From positions 22,976 through 86,975 of the forward strand of contig CAIPYE010000003.1 of NCBI GenBank assembly GCA_903869265.1: a stretch of DNA of 64,000 nt. Direction: 5' to 3'. The position numbers and the translations under genes are program-made. The notes beneath the pieces are model-generated. The model made no database searches. It was not told the DNA's origin and saw nothing but the letters and a program-made list of their open reading frames with translations. Position 1 is the stretch's first letter; every line of letters starts with the position of its first letter. This DNA is from an uncultured delta proteobacterium. GTDB lineage: Bacteria > Desulfobacterota > Desulfobulbia > Desulfobulbales > Desulfurivibrionaceae. This document shows, in pieces, positions 39,654 through 64,000 of the stretch.

Positions 39654-39775
39654 TTTAGGAGCGGTAGCAGTGTTAACGGCGACGGAATAACCATTATTTT
39701 TTCAGCCATTCCGTCGCCGTTAACACTGCTACCGCTCCTTATGCCGTTATCACTGCTGCCGTTCTTGCCATTTAA
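39654..39775. repeat. Palindromic repeat copy 3 with a perfect 32-bp stem
   Basis: AGGAGCGGTAGCAGTGTTAACGGCGACGGAAT (39657-39688) is exactly complementary to 39708-39739 around a 19-base loop. The flank TTATGCCGTTATCACTGCTGCCGTTCTTGCC matches the flank of copy 1. It is the most symmetrical member of the family. Confidence 0.8.
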
Positions 39776-39839: not shown

Positions 39840-39864
39840 GGAACTTTTCCTCCGGTGGCTTGTC
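39840..39864 (+). promoter_or_regulatory. ECF-sigma-type promoter before the sigma factor gene
   Basis: GGAAC, 17 bases, GTC lies 53 bases before the chosen start codon. GGAAC/GTC is the usual -35/-10 style of RpoE-type sigma factors, and the same elements with the same spacing recur at 41321-41345. This suggests autoregulation. Confidence 0.55.
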
Positions 39865-39916
39865 TTATTAACATACAGGAAAATTGTCCCTGGTCCATTG
39901 GGGCAAGCGGATCACG

Positions 39917-40477
39917 ATGCCATATCACGAAGCACCCGAACTTGTCCGCGCCTTTCGCCAGGGGGACCATCAGGCCTTTAACCGGCTGGTTACGCTCTAC
40001 CAGAGAAAGATTTACAATCTGGCCCTTGGCTATGTAAAGCAGGAAGATGAGGCCAAGGATCTCGCCCAGGATATCTTTGTCACCGTGTACCGGCAGATAG
40101 ACAAGCTTAAGGACGAAAGCAAATTCGGGGCCTGGCTCTATCAACTGGCCTTGAATCACTGCCGGAACCGTTATCAGAGACTACGACGCCGGGGATTTTT
40201 CAGCAACCAGTCCCTTGACGACCCGGAGACAGGCCTGAACCTAAGTTCCGGCGCCACCCCGGAAAAGGATTATGAACGGCAGAACACTGCGCGCTTGGTG
40301 AGGGAAGCCATTGCCTCCCTGACGCCAGCGGAAAAGGAGGTCATTCTTCTCCGCGATCTCCAGGAGCTGTCGTACGAAGAAATCAGTGATATCCTTGATC
40401 TGCCCATGGGCACGGTCAAGTCAAAGTTGAACCGGGCCCGACTGGCCCTGAAAAACCGCCTAAAACATTTTCTGTAA
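39917..40477 (+). CDS. rpoE: ECF RNA polymerase sigma factor (RpoE type)
   Basis: Protein of about 186 residues. Sigma region 2 is at the N-terminus (AFNRLVTLYQRKIYNLALGYVKQEDEAKDLAQDIFVTVYRQIDKLKDESKFGAWLYQLALNHCRNRY). Region 4 is at the C-terminus (LTPAEKEVILLRDLQELSYEEISDILDLPMGTVKSKLNRARLALK). Region 3 is absent, as in ECF sigma factors. The ATG at 39917 is chosen; an upstream TTG adds 11 residues. The next gene, 10 bases later, is a zinc-finger anti-sigma factor, and HtrA follows, so a role in envelope stress is likely by analogy with RpoE. The exact signal is not known. Confidence 0.9.
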   Translation: MPYHEAPELVRAFRQGDHQAFNRLVTLYQRKIYNLALGYVKQEDEAKDLAQDIFVTVYRQIDKLKDESKFGAWLYQLALNHCRNRYQRLRRRGFFSNQSLDDPETGLNLSSGATPEKDYERQNTARLVREAIASLTPAEKEVILLRDLQELSYEEISDILDLPMGTVKSKLNRARLALKNRLKHFL

Positions 40478-40487
40478 ACGGTCTGCC

Positions 40488-41303
40488 ATGCAATGCACTG
40501 AAAGCCAAACGCTGTTCACCGATTTCGCCGACAACACCCTTGGCCGCGAGGAGCTGCACGCCCTGACCGACCATCTTCTCGGCTGCCCGGCCTGCGCCCT
40601 GGAATGGAGGGAATTCCAGCAAACCCTCAGCTTGGTGCATAGTCTTGAGTCACAGCCCCCCCCGGCCGATCTGCTGCCCGGCATCCATCTCAAGCTGGCA
40701 CAAAGGGGGATGTTCGACCGGGTATGGGCTCTTGTAGAAGCCCTGAACTTTTCCCTGTCAATCCCCGCCGCCGCGGCCATATTCACCATCGCCATGCTGG
40801 CCGGGTTTTTACTGAAAACCGCCCCCCAGGAGCCGCCCGGGGTCTTACCCTCAGCCCCTCCTCCTTCCCAGATCAGCGCTTTACGCCTTGGCGAGGTGCC
40901 CACGCCCAAACGGCAGCCCATTGCCCCCAGCGCCATGTTTGCCGTCTCCCATAATGGAGGGCGACAAAACGAAAACCTGGAGCCGCTTGCCCAAACAGTC
41001 CTGGCAACCCACCCGACCATGGACAATGAGGCCCACCGTTTGTTGTCCCCGGATATGCACGTGCTCATCGCGGATACCGACCACGACAGCCAGATCGCGC
41101 TCTTTCAGGAAATGCTGCACCGAAACTGGCAGATCCACCGCATGACCTCCAATTTGTACCTTGTCCATCTCCCCCAGACCGGATTGGAAGATTTCCATGA
41201 ACTCATTGGCCAACATCATTTTGCCCTGATGCCGGCTGCTGCTGCCCAAGCACGATTCGGCAGCAGCAAGAAGGTCTTGACCGCAGCCATCTACTTTCAA
41301 TAA
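40488..41303 (+). CDS. Zinc-finger (zf-HC2) anti-sigma factor, membrane-anchored
   Basis: Protein of 271 residues. The N-terminus CTESQTLFTDFADNTLGREELHALTDHLLGCPACALEWREFQ has the H-x3-C-x2-C pattern of anti-sigma zinc fingers. A membrane segment follows (LSIPAAAAIFTIAMLAGFLL, about 87-106). The periplasmic part (about 110-271) is unlike RseA, with VLIADTDHDSQIALFQEMLHRNWQIHRM. It would hold the upstream sigma factor inactive at the membrane until proteolysis. Its position directly after the sigma gene supports this. Confidence 0.85.
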   Translation: MQCTESQTLFTDFADNTLGREELHALTDHLLGCPACALEWREFQQTLSLVHSLESQPPPADLLPGIHLKLAQRGMFDRVWALVEALNFSLSIPAAAAIFTIAMLAGFLLKTAPQEPPGVLPSAPPPSQISALRLGEVPTPKRQPIAPSAMFAVSHNGGRQNENLEPLAQTVLATHPTMDNEAHRLLSPDMHVLIADTDHDSQIALFQEMLHRNWQIHRMTSNLYLVHLPQTGLEDFHELIGQHHFALMPAAAAQARFGSSKKVLTAAIYFQ

Positions 41304-41320
41304 AGATACTTCTTTTTTCT

Positions 41321-41345
41321 GGAACCTTTACCCGACAGACCGTGT
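41321..41345 (+). promoter_or_regulatory. ECF-sigma-type promoter upstream of the candidate small RNA
   Basis: GGAAC, 17 bases, GTC: the same elements and spacing as the promoter at 39840-39864. It is 18 bases after the anti-sigma stop codon. A strong terminator lies only about 75 bases downstream, so the transcript may be short. Confidence 0.5.
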
Positions 41346-41352
41346 CATAATA

Positions 41353-41462
41353 ATTATGATGCGCATCATCAAAAGCATCTCTTCTTCCTTTCCCTTCTTC
41401 CCCAGAAGGGCTCTCTCCTGGGACCGCAGAGCCGCCCCGCTCCTGCGGTCCCGCTTTTTTTT
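41353..41462 (+). ncRNA. Candidate ECF-sigma-dependent small RNA
   Basis: Bounded by the GGAAC-N17-GTC promoter and a strong intrinsic terminator, giving a transcript of about 110 bases. The 5' part holds a C/U-rich single-stranded stretch (CTTCTTCCTTTCCCTTCTTCC) that could pair with ribosome binding sites. The 3' end is a GC stem and T8, typical of Hfq-dependent small RNAs. RpoE controls such RNAs in enterobacteria. The alternative is that the terminator simply ends the sigma/anti-sigma operon. A 43-codon ORF overlaps but lacks a ribosome site. Confidence 0.4.
41420..41462 (+). terminator. Intrinsic terminator between the anti-sigma gene and htrA
   Basis: GGGACCGCAG and CTGCGGTCCC form a 10-bp GC-rich stem with a 13-base loop, followed by GC and eight T. 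It is 117 bases after the anti-sigma stop and 134 bases before the htrA start. Confidence 0.88.
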
Positions 41463-41595
41463 AGCGAGGTCAACAACGCACCGGGCTTGACATCCGAAAA
41501 AAGAGATATACACAATAAACAAAGACATGCGAGAGTATCAGCGCCGTCTCTTCATCACATTGTTACATTGCCCAACCCCATTTAAGGAGTACACA

Positions 41596-43038
41596 ATGAT
41601 TGCCCCCCTACTAACCCGTCGCCGCCCTGTTTCAGCCTTTCTGACCTTGCTGCTCATAGGCCTTTTCCTTGCAACAATGCCCGGAATAGGCAAGGCCGCA
41701 AGTAGCCCTCCGGAAACCTTTGCCGACCTGGCGGAAAAACTCAGCCCCACCGTGGTCAATATCTATACCACCCAGACGGTCAAGGCCTCCCGCTCGTTCC
41801 ATGACATGTTCAATGACCAGGATATCCCCGAACCCTTCCGTCACTTCTTCGGCCCCTCCCCCTTTGGCCAGGAGCAGCCCCAACAGGACCAAAAACGAAC
41901 CAGCCTCGGCTCAGGGGTGATCATCTCCAAGGATGGCTACATTGTCACCAATAACCATGTGGTGGAAAACGCCGACACCATCAATGTGCGTCTGACCAAT
42001 TTCGAAGAATACGATGCAAAGGTAATCGGTCGCGACCCAAAATCAGACCTCGCCCTACTCAAGATCGCGCCCAAAAACGGGTTGCCGGTGACAGCCTTCG
42101 GGGATTCGGAAAAATTGCGGGTGGGCGACTGGGTCATGGCCATCGGCAACCCCTTTGGCTTTGAACAGACCGTAACGGCCGGAATTGTCAGCGGCAAGGG
42201 CCGCTCCCTGGGCAGCGGTCCCTATGAAAACTTCATACAAACCGACGCATCCATCAATCCCGGCAATTCCGGCGGCCCCCTGTTCAATCTCAAGGGCGAG
42301 ATGATCGGGATCAACACCGCCATTTACAGCCGCAGCGGCGGCAACATTGGCATCGGCTTCGCCATCCCAGCCAACATGGCAAAAAATGTTGTCAGCCAGC
42401 TCAAGGAACACGGCGCGGTGGTGCGCGGCTGGCTTGGAGTGATGATTCAACCCGTCACCCCGGAGCTAGCGGCGCAGTTCAAGATGGAGCGGCCCATCGG
42501 CGCCCTGGTGGGTGAGGTCACCCCCGGCAGTCCTGCGGACAAGGCCGGCGTCAAGCCCGGCGATGTCATTGTCGAGTTCAACGGCAAGGAAATCTCCCAG
42601 GTGAGCACGCTGCCCAATCTGGTGGCGGATACCCCAGTGGGAAGCAAGGCGGAAGTTACCCTCTTCCGCAAAGGCGCGCTGAAAAAGCTCCCCATTATCA
42701 TTGCCAAGCTCAACGAGGAACAGGTCGCTTCAGCTGAGTCGACCGACGCCCTCAGCAAAAACCTAGGCCTGGGGGTGCAGGATCTTACCCCTGAGCTTGC
42801 TGCGGCCCTGGGCATTACCGACAAACACGGCGTGCTGGTTACCGGGGTTGAACCTAACTCCCCCGTGGCATACGCCGGTCTGCGCAAAGGAGACCTCATA
42901 CTTGAGGTAAACCAGAAGCCCGTGCGGGATGTAAAAGCTTTCCTCAACGAGACCAAAGGATTAAAGTCAAAATCAACGGTTTCATTTTTCGTCAAACGCG
43001 ATGGGCGCACCCGCTTTGTCGGAATAAAACTCAAATAA
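41596..43038 (+). CDS. htrA: Do-family periplasmic serine protease (HtrA/DegP)
   Basis: Protein of 480 residues, starting at ATG 41596 behind AAGGAG; the ORF track adds 23 residues. It has a signal peptide (FLTLLLIGLFLATMPGIGKA), then the trypsin-like domain with His in IVTNNHVVENA, Asp in GRDPKSDLALLKI and Ser in INPGNSGGPLFNLKGE. Two PDZ domains follow (about 270-360 and 385-475). It degrades or refolds damaged envelope proteins. Its position after the sigma/anti-sigma pair fits an envelope-stress role. The intervening terminator suggests its own promoter; TTGACA at 41487 is a partial candidate. Confidence 0.95.
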   Translation: MIAPLLTRRRPVSAFLTLLLIGLFLATMPGIGKAASSPPETFADLAEKLSPTVVNIYTTQTVKASRSFHDMFNDQDIPEPFRHFFGPSPFGQEQPQQDQKRTSLGSGVIISKDGYIVTNNHVVENADTINVRLTNFEEYDAKVIGRDPKSDLALLKIAPKNGLPVTAFGDSEKLRVGDWVMAIGNPFGFEQTVTAGIVSGKGRSLGSGPYENFIQTDASINPGNSGGPLFNLKGEMIGINTAIYSRSGGNIGIGFAIPANMAKNVVSQLKEHGAVVRGWLGVMIQPVTPELAAQFKMERPIGALVGEVTPGSPADKAGVKPGDVIVEFNGKEISQVSTLPNLVADTPVGSKAEVTLFRKGALKKLPIIIAKLNEEQVASAESTDALSKNLGLGVQDLTPELAAALGITDKHGVLVTGVEPNSPVAYAGLRKGDLILEVNQKPVRDVKAFLNETKGLKSKSTVSFFVKRDGRTRFVGIKLK

Positions 43039-63189: not shown

Positions 63190-63319
63190 CCAGTGCAAAA
63201 AAGCGACACGCCAACAAAACAGGGCTTGACGCGCTCTTGTTTTTTTCTATATGCTGTAACCTGTTGAAGTAATTCACACAAATTTTCCCAATGATCAACC
63301 CGCTGTGCGGAGGAGAAAG
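63190..63319 (+). promoter_or_regulatory. Upstream region of the last chemoreceptor gene
   Basis: TTGACG (63226-63231) with TATATG about 17 bases later (63249-63254) is a promoter candidate resembling the TTGACG promoters of the first receptor array. GGAGGAG directly precedes the start codon. Confidence 0.45.
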
Positions 63320-64000
63320 ATGGCCAGACAACAGATGACAATAGGCAAAAAAATCGGTTTGGGATTTGCAGTGGTGCTGCTCTTGACCGCCGTGATTGTG
63401 GGGGTTTACCAGTTCGCCCTCTCCTCCGCCACCACCACCTTCACCGGCCTCCTTGAGGTGGAGATGGCCATTGCCGTGCGGGCCAACTCCGCCCTGAACG
63501 ACCTCAACAAGTGCCGCCGCTTTGAAAAGGACTTTCTTCTCACCGGCAACGAAGGCAAAGTCAAAGAACAAAAAGACAGTTATTTCAGCCTCACTGACGA
63601 GCTGGACACCATCGAGGCCATGGCCAAAAAAGACGGCAAGGCCAAAATAGTCGAAGGTATCGGAAAAGTTCGCACCCAGGTAGACATCTACCAGAAGAAC
63701 TTCGAACTCATCGTCAAGGCTCCGGAATATGAGCGGATGAGCATCGAGCCAAAACTCCGGGAAGCCGCCAAGGTTGCGGAACCGGTGCTGGAAGAGCTGT
63801 ATAAAACCGTGCAGGACGAGGCGAACCAGGATGTGGTTCTCGGCAAAGAACGGGCCAAATTCCTGGGCTTGCTGGCCCTGGCTCTGGGCGTCATCGCCCT
63901 GGCCAGCGGCGCGGCCATTGCCTTTTTTCTGGGGAGGGGGATATCCACCACCCTCAAGCAGGTCAGCCAAACCTTGAACGAAGGGGCTGAGCAGGTGGCC
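63320..64000 (+). CDS. Methyl-accepting chemotaxis protein, N-terminal part (runs off the window)
   Basis: The ATG at 63320 follows CGGAGGAGAAAG; the ORF track omits it because there is no stop before the end. 227 codons are visible. Membrane segment 1 (IGLGFAVVLLLTAVIVGVY) is followed by a helical periplasmic domain containing LNKCRRFEKDFLLTG, a pattern of helical bimodular or four-helix receptors, then membrane segment 2 (LLALALGVIALASGAAIAFFL) and the start of HAMP (GRGISTTLKQVSQTLNEGAEQVA). It is not closely similar to the array at 52-10170 in its sensor. The signalling part lies outside. Confidence 0.85.
   Translation, partial: MARQQMTIGKKIGLGFAVVLLLTAVIVGVYQFALSSATTTFTGLLEVEMAIAVRANSALNDLNKCRRFEKDFLLTGNEGKVKEQKDSYFSLTDELDTIEAMAKKDGKAKIVEGIGKVRTQVDIYQKNFELIVKAPEYERMSIEPKLREAAKVAEPVLEELYKTVQDEANQDVVLGKERAKFLGLLALALGVIALASGAAIAFFLGRGISTTLKQVSQTLNEGAEQVA

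Follow-up and report, generated by a model that had tools for sequence, protein, structure and literature searches.

We describe a small RNA gene, RNA1, in a stretch of 64,000 nucleotides (the window) from an uncultured delta proteobacterium of the Desulfurivibrionaceae (assembly GCA_903869265.1, 2.8 Mb, 99% complete, with the window on contig C3), where it lies between the gene of a zinc-finger anti-sigma factor and htrA. Its promoter, structure, terminator and conservation, as well as a sibling RNA elsewhere in the genome, were obtained by comparing sequences, and on this basis RNA1 is almost certainly a real RNA gene. We infer that it is transcribed, that it depends on the extracytoplasmic function (ECF) sigma factor encoded beside it, and that it probably silences mRNAs in trans by base pairing during envelope stress, perhaps mainly those of envelope proteins, and so forms the non-coding branch of a sigma-E-like response under ECF control.

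RNA1 is composed of a 5' hairpin, a C/U linker, a second hairpin with a mostly C-rich loop and a terminator. These elements and the promoter are located as follows:

41321 to 41350, + strand: ECF promoter 2, for the small RNA, GGAACCTTT and TGTC
41354 to 41462, + strand: RNA1 gene, with a predicted transcript length of about 109 nt and a start placed to within a few bases
41358 to 41379, + strand: hairpin 1 (GAUGC/GCAUC), 5' end of RNA1, 98-100% of alignment cells paired
41378 to 41403, + strand: 26-nt run of pure C/U and candidate seed, covering the unpaired linker (41380-41391) followed by hairpin 2 up to and including its loop
41392 to 41410, + strand: hairpin 2 (CCCUUCU/AGAAGGG) with loop UCCCC, 6 of 7 pairs changed on both sides
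41420 to 41462, + strand: intrinsic terminator, stem GGGACCGCAG/CTGCGGTCCC at 41420-41452 and T8 at 41455-41462

A preliminary description of this DNA had proposed a second ECF promoter, a GC stem with a T8 terminator and a C/U stretch within 41321-41462; all of them are found there, and its transcript of about 110 bases agrees with the roughly 109 nt expected from promoter 2 and the terminator. The automated terminator scan did not pick up the terminator at 41420-41462, probably due to a bulge and a loop near the tip of the stem. Pyrimidine runs of at least 26 nt are rare, with only five, the run of RNA1 among them, in the 2.68 Mb (about 95% of this genome) covered by our genome-wide scans. 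The covariance model built for the family scores RNA1 at 128 bits, the window sequence itself being part of the model.

Most of the 15 congeners that have the anti-sigma gene carry RNA1 behind it. Within the genus the RNA1 body is 88% identical, compared with 74% for the neighbouring end of the anti-sigma coding sequence, 55% just past the terminator and 54% in the 5' untranslated region (UTR) of htrA, while hairpins 1 and 2 reach 90-94% and the loop UCCCC of hairpin 2 is found in 13 of the 14 sequences of the closest group. When relatives from several families are folded singly, 25 out of 26 show hairpin 1, the pyrimidine linker, hairpin 2 and the terminator, and the fold z-scores of the eight RNA1 relatives tested range from -4.8 to -7.5. 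In an alignment of 22 sequences, 15 of 25 pairs are changed on both sides, with 40 such cells as against 5.8 in shuffles and 3-13 with partners slid, and an alignment of 26 sequences gives 17 of 25 pairs and 69 cells. Double-sided changes were seen in 3 of 5 pairs of hairpin 1 in one alignment (A7) and in all five in another (A6), and in the terminator in 3 of 9 lower-stem and 3 of 4 upper-stem pairs. The structure and the terminator expected of a discrete short transcript are present and conserved, and by these comparisons selection has preserved the structure in several families of sulfur bacteria. The C/U stretch and the terminator, which the preliminary description had read from one sequence, are conserved in relatives, together with a covariation that could not be seen from that sequence alone.

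A small protein or leader peptide translated from the ATG in hairpin 1 (41359) would have an open frame of 43 codons in the window. Among congeners, however, changes in linker length shift this frame, resulting in FFPRR, SSPEG and LPQKA versions and lengths of 33-71 amino acids; base pairs are conserved and not codons, and after the predicted transcript start there is no space for a ribosome-binding site, so that a coding function of RNA1 is very improbable.

RNA1 is part of a locus with the genes for the ECF sigma factor, a zf-HC2 anti-sigma factor and htrA/degP at 39917-43038, in which it is preceded by:

39840 to 39868, + strand: ECF promoter 1, GGAACTTTT-TTGTC, 5' of the ECF sigma gene
39917 to 40477, + strand: ECF sigma factor gene, 186 amino acids, Pfam Sigma70_r2 and r4_2
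40488 to 41303, + strand: anti-sigma factor gene, Pfam zf-HC2 domain and a membrane segment

RpoE is the nearest NCBIfam model for the sigma protein, with a score under the cut-off, and the anti-sigma gene is found in 15 of 16 congeners with an identity of 61-78%. Nearly all relatives with a readable upstream region have the promoter 1 motif before their ECF gene, which is consistent with autoregulation of the sigma factor gene. Promoter 2 has the form GGAACC-N16-GTGTC (GGAACC at 41321, TGTC at 41343-41346) and is kept in 26 relatives across families, with a GGAAC-to-GTC spacing of 16-17 and at a near-constant distance to hairpin 1. As far as sequence can tell, promoter 2 is one recognised by an ECF/sigma-E factor, since the GGAAC..GTC motif is common to the ECF gene and RNA1, being located 5' of both in relatives. 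Promoter 1 is the top profile match in the genome, and promoter 2 ranks third of all positions in the 2.68 Mb with a profile trained solely on promoters of ECF genes from 24 other genomes, small RNA promoters excluded. A combined profile of both promoter types gave 34.8 for the ECF promoter, 34.4 for the RNA1 promoter and 24.4 for the next match, a TPR-protein gene, followed by chance-like matches; it was trained partly on promoters 1 and 2, and only the drop in score after them is informative. Altogether, control of RNA1 by the ECF sigma factor is very probable. In one congener (G005, locus L004) the end of the anti-sigma gene runs directly into the C/U linker, promoter 2 and hairpin 1 being missing and the remainder intact.

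A second RNA with a similar layout was found in the same genome:

G000:C5:350-517 (L134:350-517), outside the window: RNA2, with an ECF promoter, C/U-rich and ended by a terminator

RNA2 has a 5' stem-loop with the loop UCUCCUCCCC, continues with the linker UUCUUCCCCUCUCUUCCUC and a small hairpin, and closes with a long terminator; its fold has a z-score of -9.7. It has the 10-mer CUUCUUCCCC in common with RNA1 and is matched by the RNA1-family model with 28.2 bits (E 1.1e-6 in 800 bases). The genome has 11 loose matches to the ECF promoter, and only those of RNA1 and RNA2 lead into both a 20/20 pyrimidine window and a strong terminator. A terminator is expected behind an anti-sigma gene, and RNA1 might be taken for no more than such a terminator, with a site that resembles a promoter by chance and a spacer of biased composition; but with hairpins 1 and 2 covarying and highly conserved, the promoter conserved, and the combination of promoter, pyrimidine stretch and terminator occurring only twice in the genome, we give this explanation almost no credence.

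By DNA search, RNA2 was detected at full length, including its promoter, in 13 of 16 congeners and in G020. Two genomes (G009, G014) have RNA2 and lack RNA1, two others (G001, G011) have RNA1 and gave no RNA2 match in the DNA search, and one that is 85% complete (G012) matched neither. RNA2 is probably a partly redundant sibling of RNA1, and a pair of which one member is lost in some species would make redundancy in a stress circuit testable. In four relatives both RNAs are on one contig at a distance of 22.9-28.7 kb. Because C3 ends inside a chemoreceptor-like gene (63305-64000, cut by the window's contig end) and C5 begins with one (read as a chemoreceptor-like C-terminus from a short fragment with no Pfam match), the two contigs are probably neighbours, which would place RNA2 about 23 kb from RNA1, just past the contig end of the window. 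A possible RNA2 relative, whose alignment with RNA2 is weak, was also seen behind a chemoreceptor gene in another family (L121).

Downstream of the RNA1 terminator the locus continues with:

41487 to 41516, + strand: sigma-70-type htrA promoter, TTGACA..CACAAT, 3' of the terminator
41596 to 43038, + strand: htrA/degP serine protease gene, NCBIfam degP_htrA_DO over the cut-off

The position of RNA1 directly 5' of htrA, a classical sigma-E target, and a GGCUCU that could pair with AGAGCC in competition with the terminator would also suit a cis-acting leader or attenuator, in which the ECF promoter serves htrA and a hairpin chooses between termination and read-through. Yet the GGCUCU/AGAGCC pairing is without any double-sided change, and 2 of its 6 pairs fail in 3 of 14 sequences. 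Moreover, htrA has its own conserved promoter past the terminator (84% identical in congeners, with a TTGAC box 3' of the terminator in nearly all family relatives), which is retained at locus L008, where promoter 2 and the RNA are lost together. Judging from this TTGACA-type promoter and its retention at L008, htrA does not rely solely on the ECF promoter. A further locus, L072, keeps the RNA with a group II intron behind the terminator and without htrA found downstream on that contig, and RNA2 represents a similar RNA elsewhere in the genome. Taken together, an attenuator of htrA is unlikely. Insertion after terminators is the expected behaviour of group II introns, and L072 fits it; its intron (L072:4116-4402; Rfam RF02001, 103 bits) is situated shortly behind the RNA1 terminator.

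For RNA1 as a trans-acting small RNA, the following mode of action is likely. Once set free by its zinc-finger anti-sigma factor, the ECF sigma factor would turn on its own operon via promoter 1 and RNA1 via promoter 2. The C/U stretches of RNA1, which resemble the anti-Shine-Dalgarno end of 16S rRNA, would then probably pair with purine-rich ribosome-binding sites and, with neither Hfq nor ProQ involved, keep mRNAs from being translated, most likely those of envelope proteins. We propose this mechanism because chaperone-independent small RNAs elsewhere (sX13, NfeR1, FoxI/FoxJ) use exposed C-rich or anti-Shine-Dalgarno motifs, and pairing of RNA1 with ribosome-binding sites is likely on this analysis. 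Over 25 relatives the pyrimidine content of the linker is 93%, and CCUCCUU, the anti-Shine-Dalgarno core of 16S rRNA, is found in some relatives from other families (L021, L030, L057). A search for Hfq (PF17209), suggested in the preliminary description, found it in Escherichia coli and others but in none of 17 genomes of the genus; ProQ was not found in this genome, and CsrA is present. The system would therefore offer, with Hfq and ProQ not found, a clean case for the chaperone-free working of C/U-seeded small RNAs.

Several observations weigh against this interpretation. Among congeners the linker keeps its composition while its letters vary (67% identity), an unusual pattern for a specific seed. 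Fitting the structural alignments to the model favours the covariation counts, although the independent folds, free of that bias, agree with them. The terminator is common to RNA1 and the upstream operon, and part of the RNA could stem from mRNA 3' ends. Finally, target prediction on 2836 start regions with the RNA1 seed, the RNA2 seed and the shared 10-mer placed 7, 5 and 4 signal-peptide genes in the respective top 50, compared with means of 5.0, 5.2 and 3.0 for shuffled seeds, and thus no enrichment; an uncorrected p of 0.02 for signal-peptide enrichment was lost under the shuffled-seed control. Good pairing is seen at the starts of genes for a porin, a lipoprotein of the OmpA family and a transport lipoprotein (top 60 pairings), but shuffled seeds yield as many envelope genes. 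One predicted target, a putative porin (G000:C1:327340-328677, Pfam Porin_5), is absent from all three congeners without RNA1 and also from three with it, too few independent events to be of use. Because target prediction performs no better than shuffled seeds, repression of outer-membrane protein mRNAs is still something that we infer, and the chance that envelope mRNAs are the main targets falls somewhat short of even.

With regard to the shared terminator, which likely also ends the ECF/anti-sigma mRNA, small RNAs derived from 3'-UTRs are common, and RNA1 might be cut from this mRNA, with promoter 2 playing a minor part. One terminator would then end both transcripts, and such processing is possible as an addition. 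As the origin of RNA1 it has a low probability, given an ECF promoter shortly 5' of hairpin 1 in 26 relatives, its genome-wide rank, and the same promoter type in front of RNA2 at another locus. A primary transcript is favoured over a 3'-UTR product because promoter 2 is conserved.

The sigma-E promoters of RybB, MicA, MicL and VrrA in Gammaproteobacteria are of the GGAAC type, as is that of RNA1. Like the predicted RNA1 transcript, these are short, terminated RNAs, and RNA1 would be expected to form a comparable negative arm of an envelope stress response; RNA1, however, lacks an Rfam match and differs in structure and seed composition, and the enterobacterial RNAs use Hfq, which was not found here (PMC1804206, PMC2628432). 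While the earlier interpretation as a small RNA is largely supported, its remark that an equivalent in this group would be new has to be qualified, as FoxI/FoxJ of Fusobacterium nucleatum are a precedent outside enterobacteria (PMC11005410). In this host without Hfq or ProQ, the sigma-E-dependent pair of C-rich small RNAs lowers major envelope proteins, with a C-stretch seed that is linear in FoxI and in a hairpin loop in FoxJ, which is encoded between der and ylmH (PMC11005410). FoxI/FoxJ are the closest known system, with sigma-E-type control, a pair of RNAs, C-rich seeds and no Hfq or ProQ found, but belong to another phylum and other loci, whereas RNA1 is inside the locus of its sigma factor and has C/U seeds in both linker and loop. 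Two further groups are Hfq-independent, namely sX13 of Xanthomonas, with C-rich loops that target G-rich motifs where translation starts (PMC3771888; Rfam RF02232), and the NfeR1/alpha-r14 'cuckoo' RNAs, with three hairpins, exposed anti-Shine-Dalgarno motifs CCUCCUCCC and a sigma-70-type promoter (PMC10746234; Rfam RF02344). The best Rfam match of RNA1, a weak one, is RF02232 (14.2 bits, cut-off 50, E 1.6), with no significant homology and another hairpin layout. RF02344 does not match RNA1, from which the repeated identical CCUCCUCCC motif is absent, and matches RNA2 below threshold (30.8 bits, cut-off 58.8), one RNA2 loop having UCUCCUCCCC.

Under the gathering and permissive thresholds of Rfam 15, RNA1 matches no family at cut-off, the RybB, MicA and MicL families have no gathering-score match in the window, and the open-access literature describes no small RNA in these bacteria. 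As far as the Rfam 15 cut-offs show, the family is new, its kind being already known from two other phyla. With the covariance model, RNA1 was found as a single copy per genome in 27 of the 258 Desulfobulbales genomes searched, including Desulfurivibrio sp. AMeS2 (L051) and Desulfobulbaceae UBA2262 and UBA2273 (L043, L075). A 198-genome spread of the phylum gave only two already-known carriers and one weak match (L122), which we judged to be chance because no ECF promoter is nearby. RNA1 would extend the sigma-E small RNA strategy of Gammaproteobacteria and Fusobacteriota to Desulfobacterota, with an RNA family supported by covariation.

The findings also point to an ECF regulon in which the best-matching promoters lead to RNA and not to repair proteins. 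More tentatively, the sigma factor may act mainly via RNA. Apart from its own operon and perhaps one TPR protein, its clear direct outputs would then be two sibling small RNAs resembling the anti-Shine-Dalgarno, each able to take the other's place in the course of evolution; a non-coding sigma-E arm of this kind, working without known RNA chaperones, would have evolved independently and be the third such arm. The third-best match of the combined profile, at G000:C15:232733, is an ECF-type promoter 5' of a gene for a membrane-anchored TPR-like protein, possibly a further regulon member. Upstream of ECF promoter 1, at 39658-39743, a long near-perfect inverted repeat (GGAGCGGTAGCAGTGTTAACGGCGACGGA and its complement) forms a strong hairpin.
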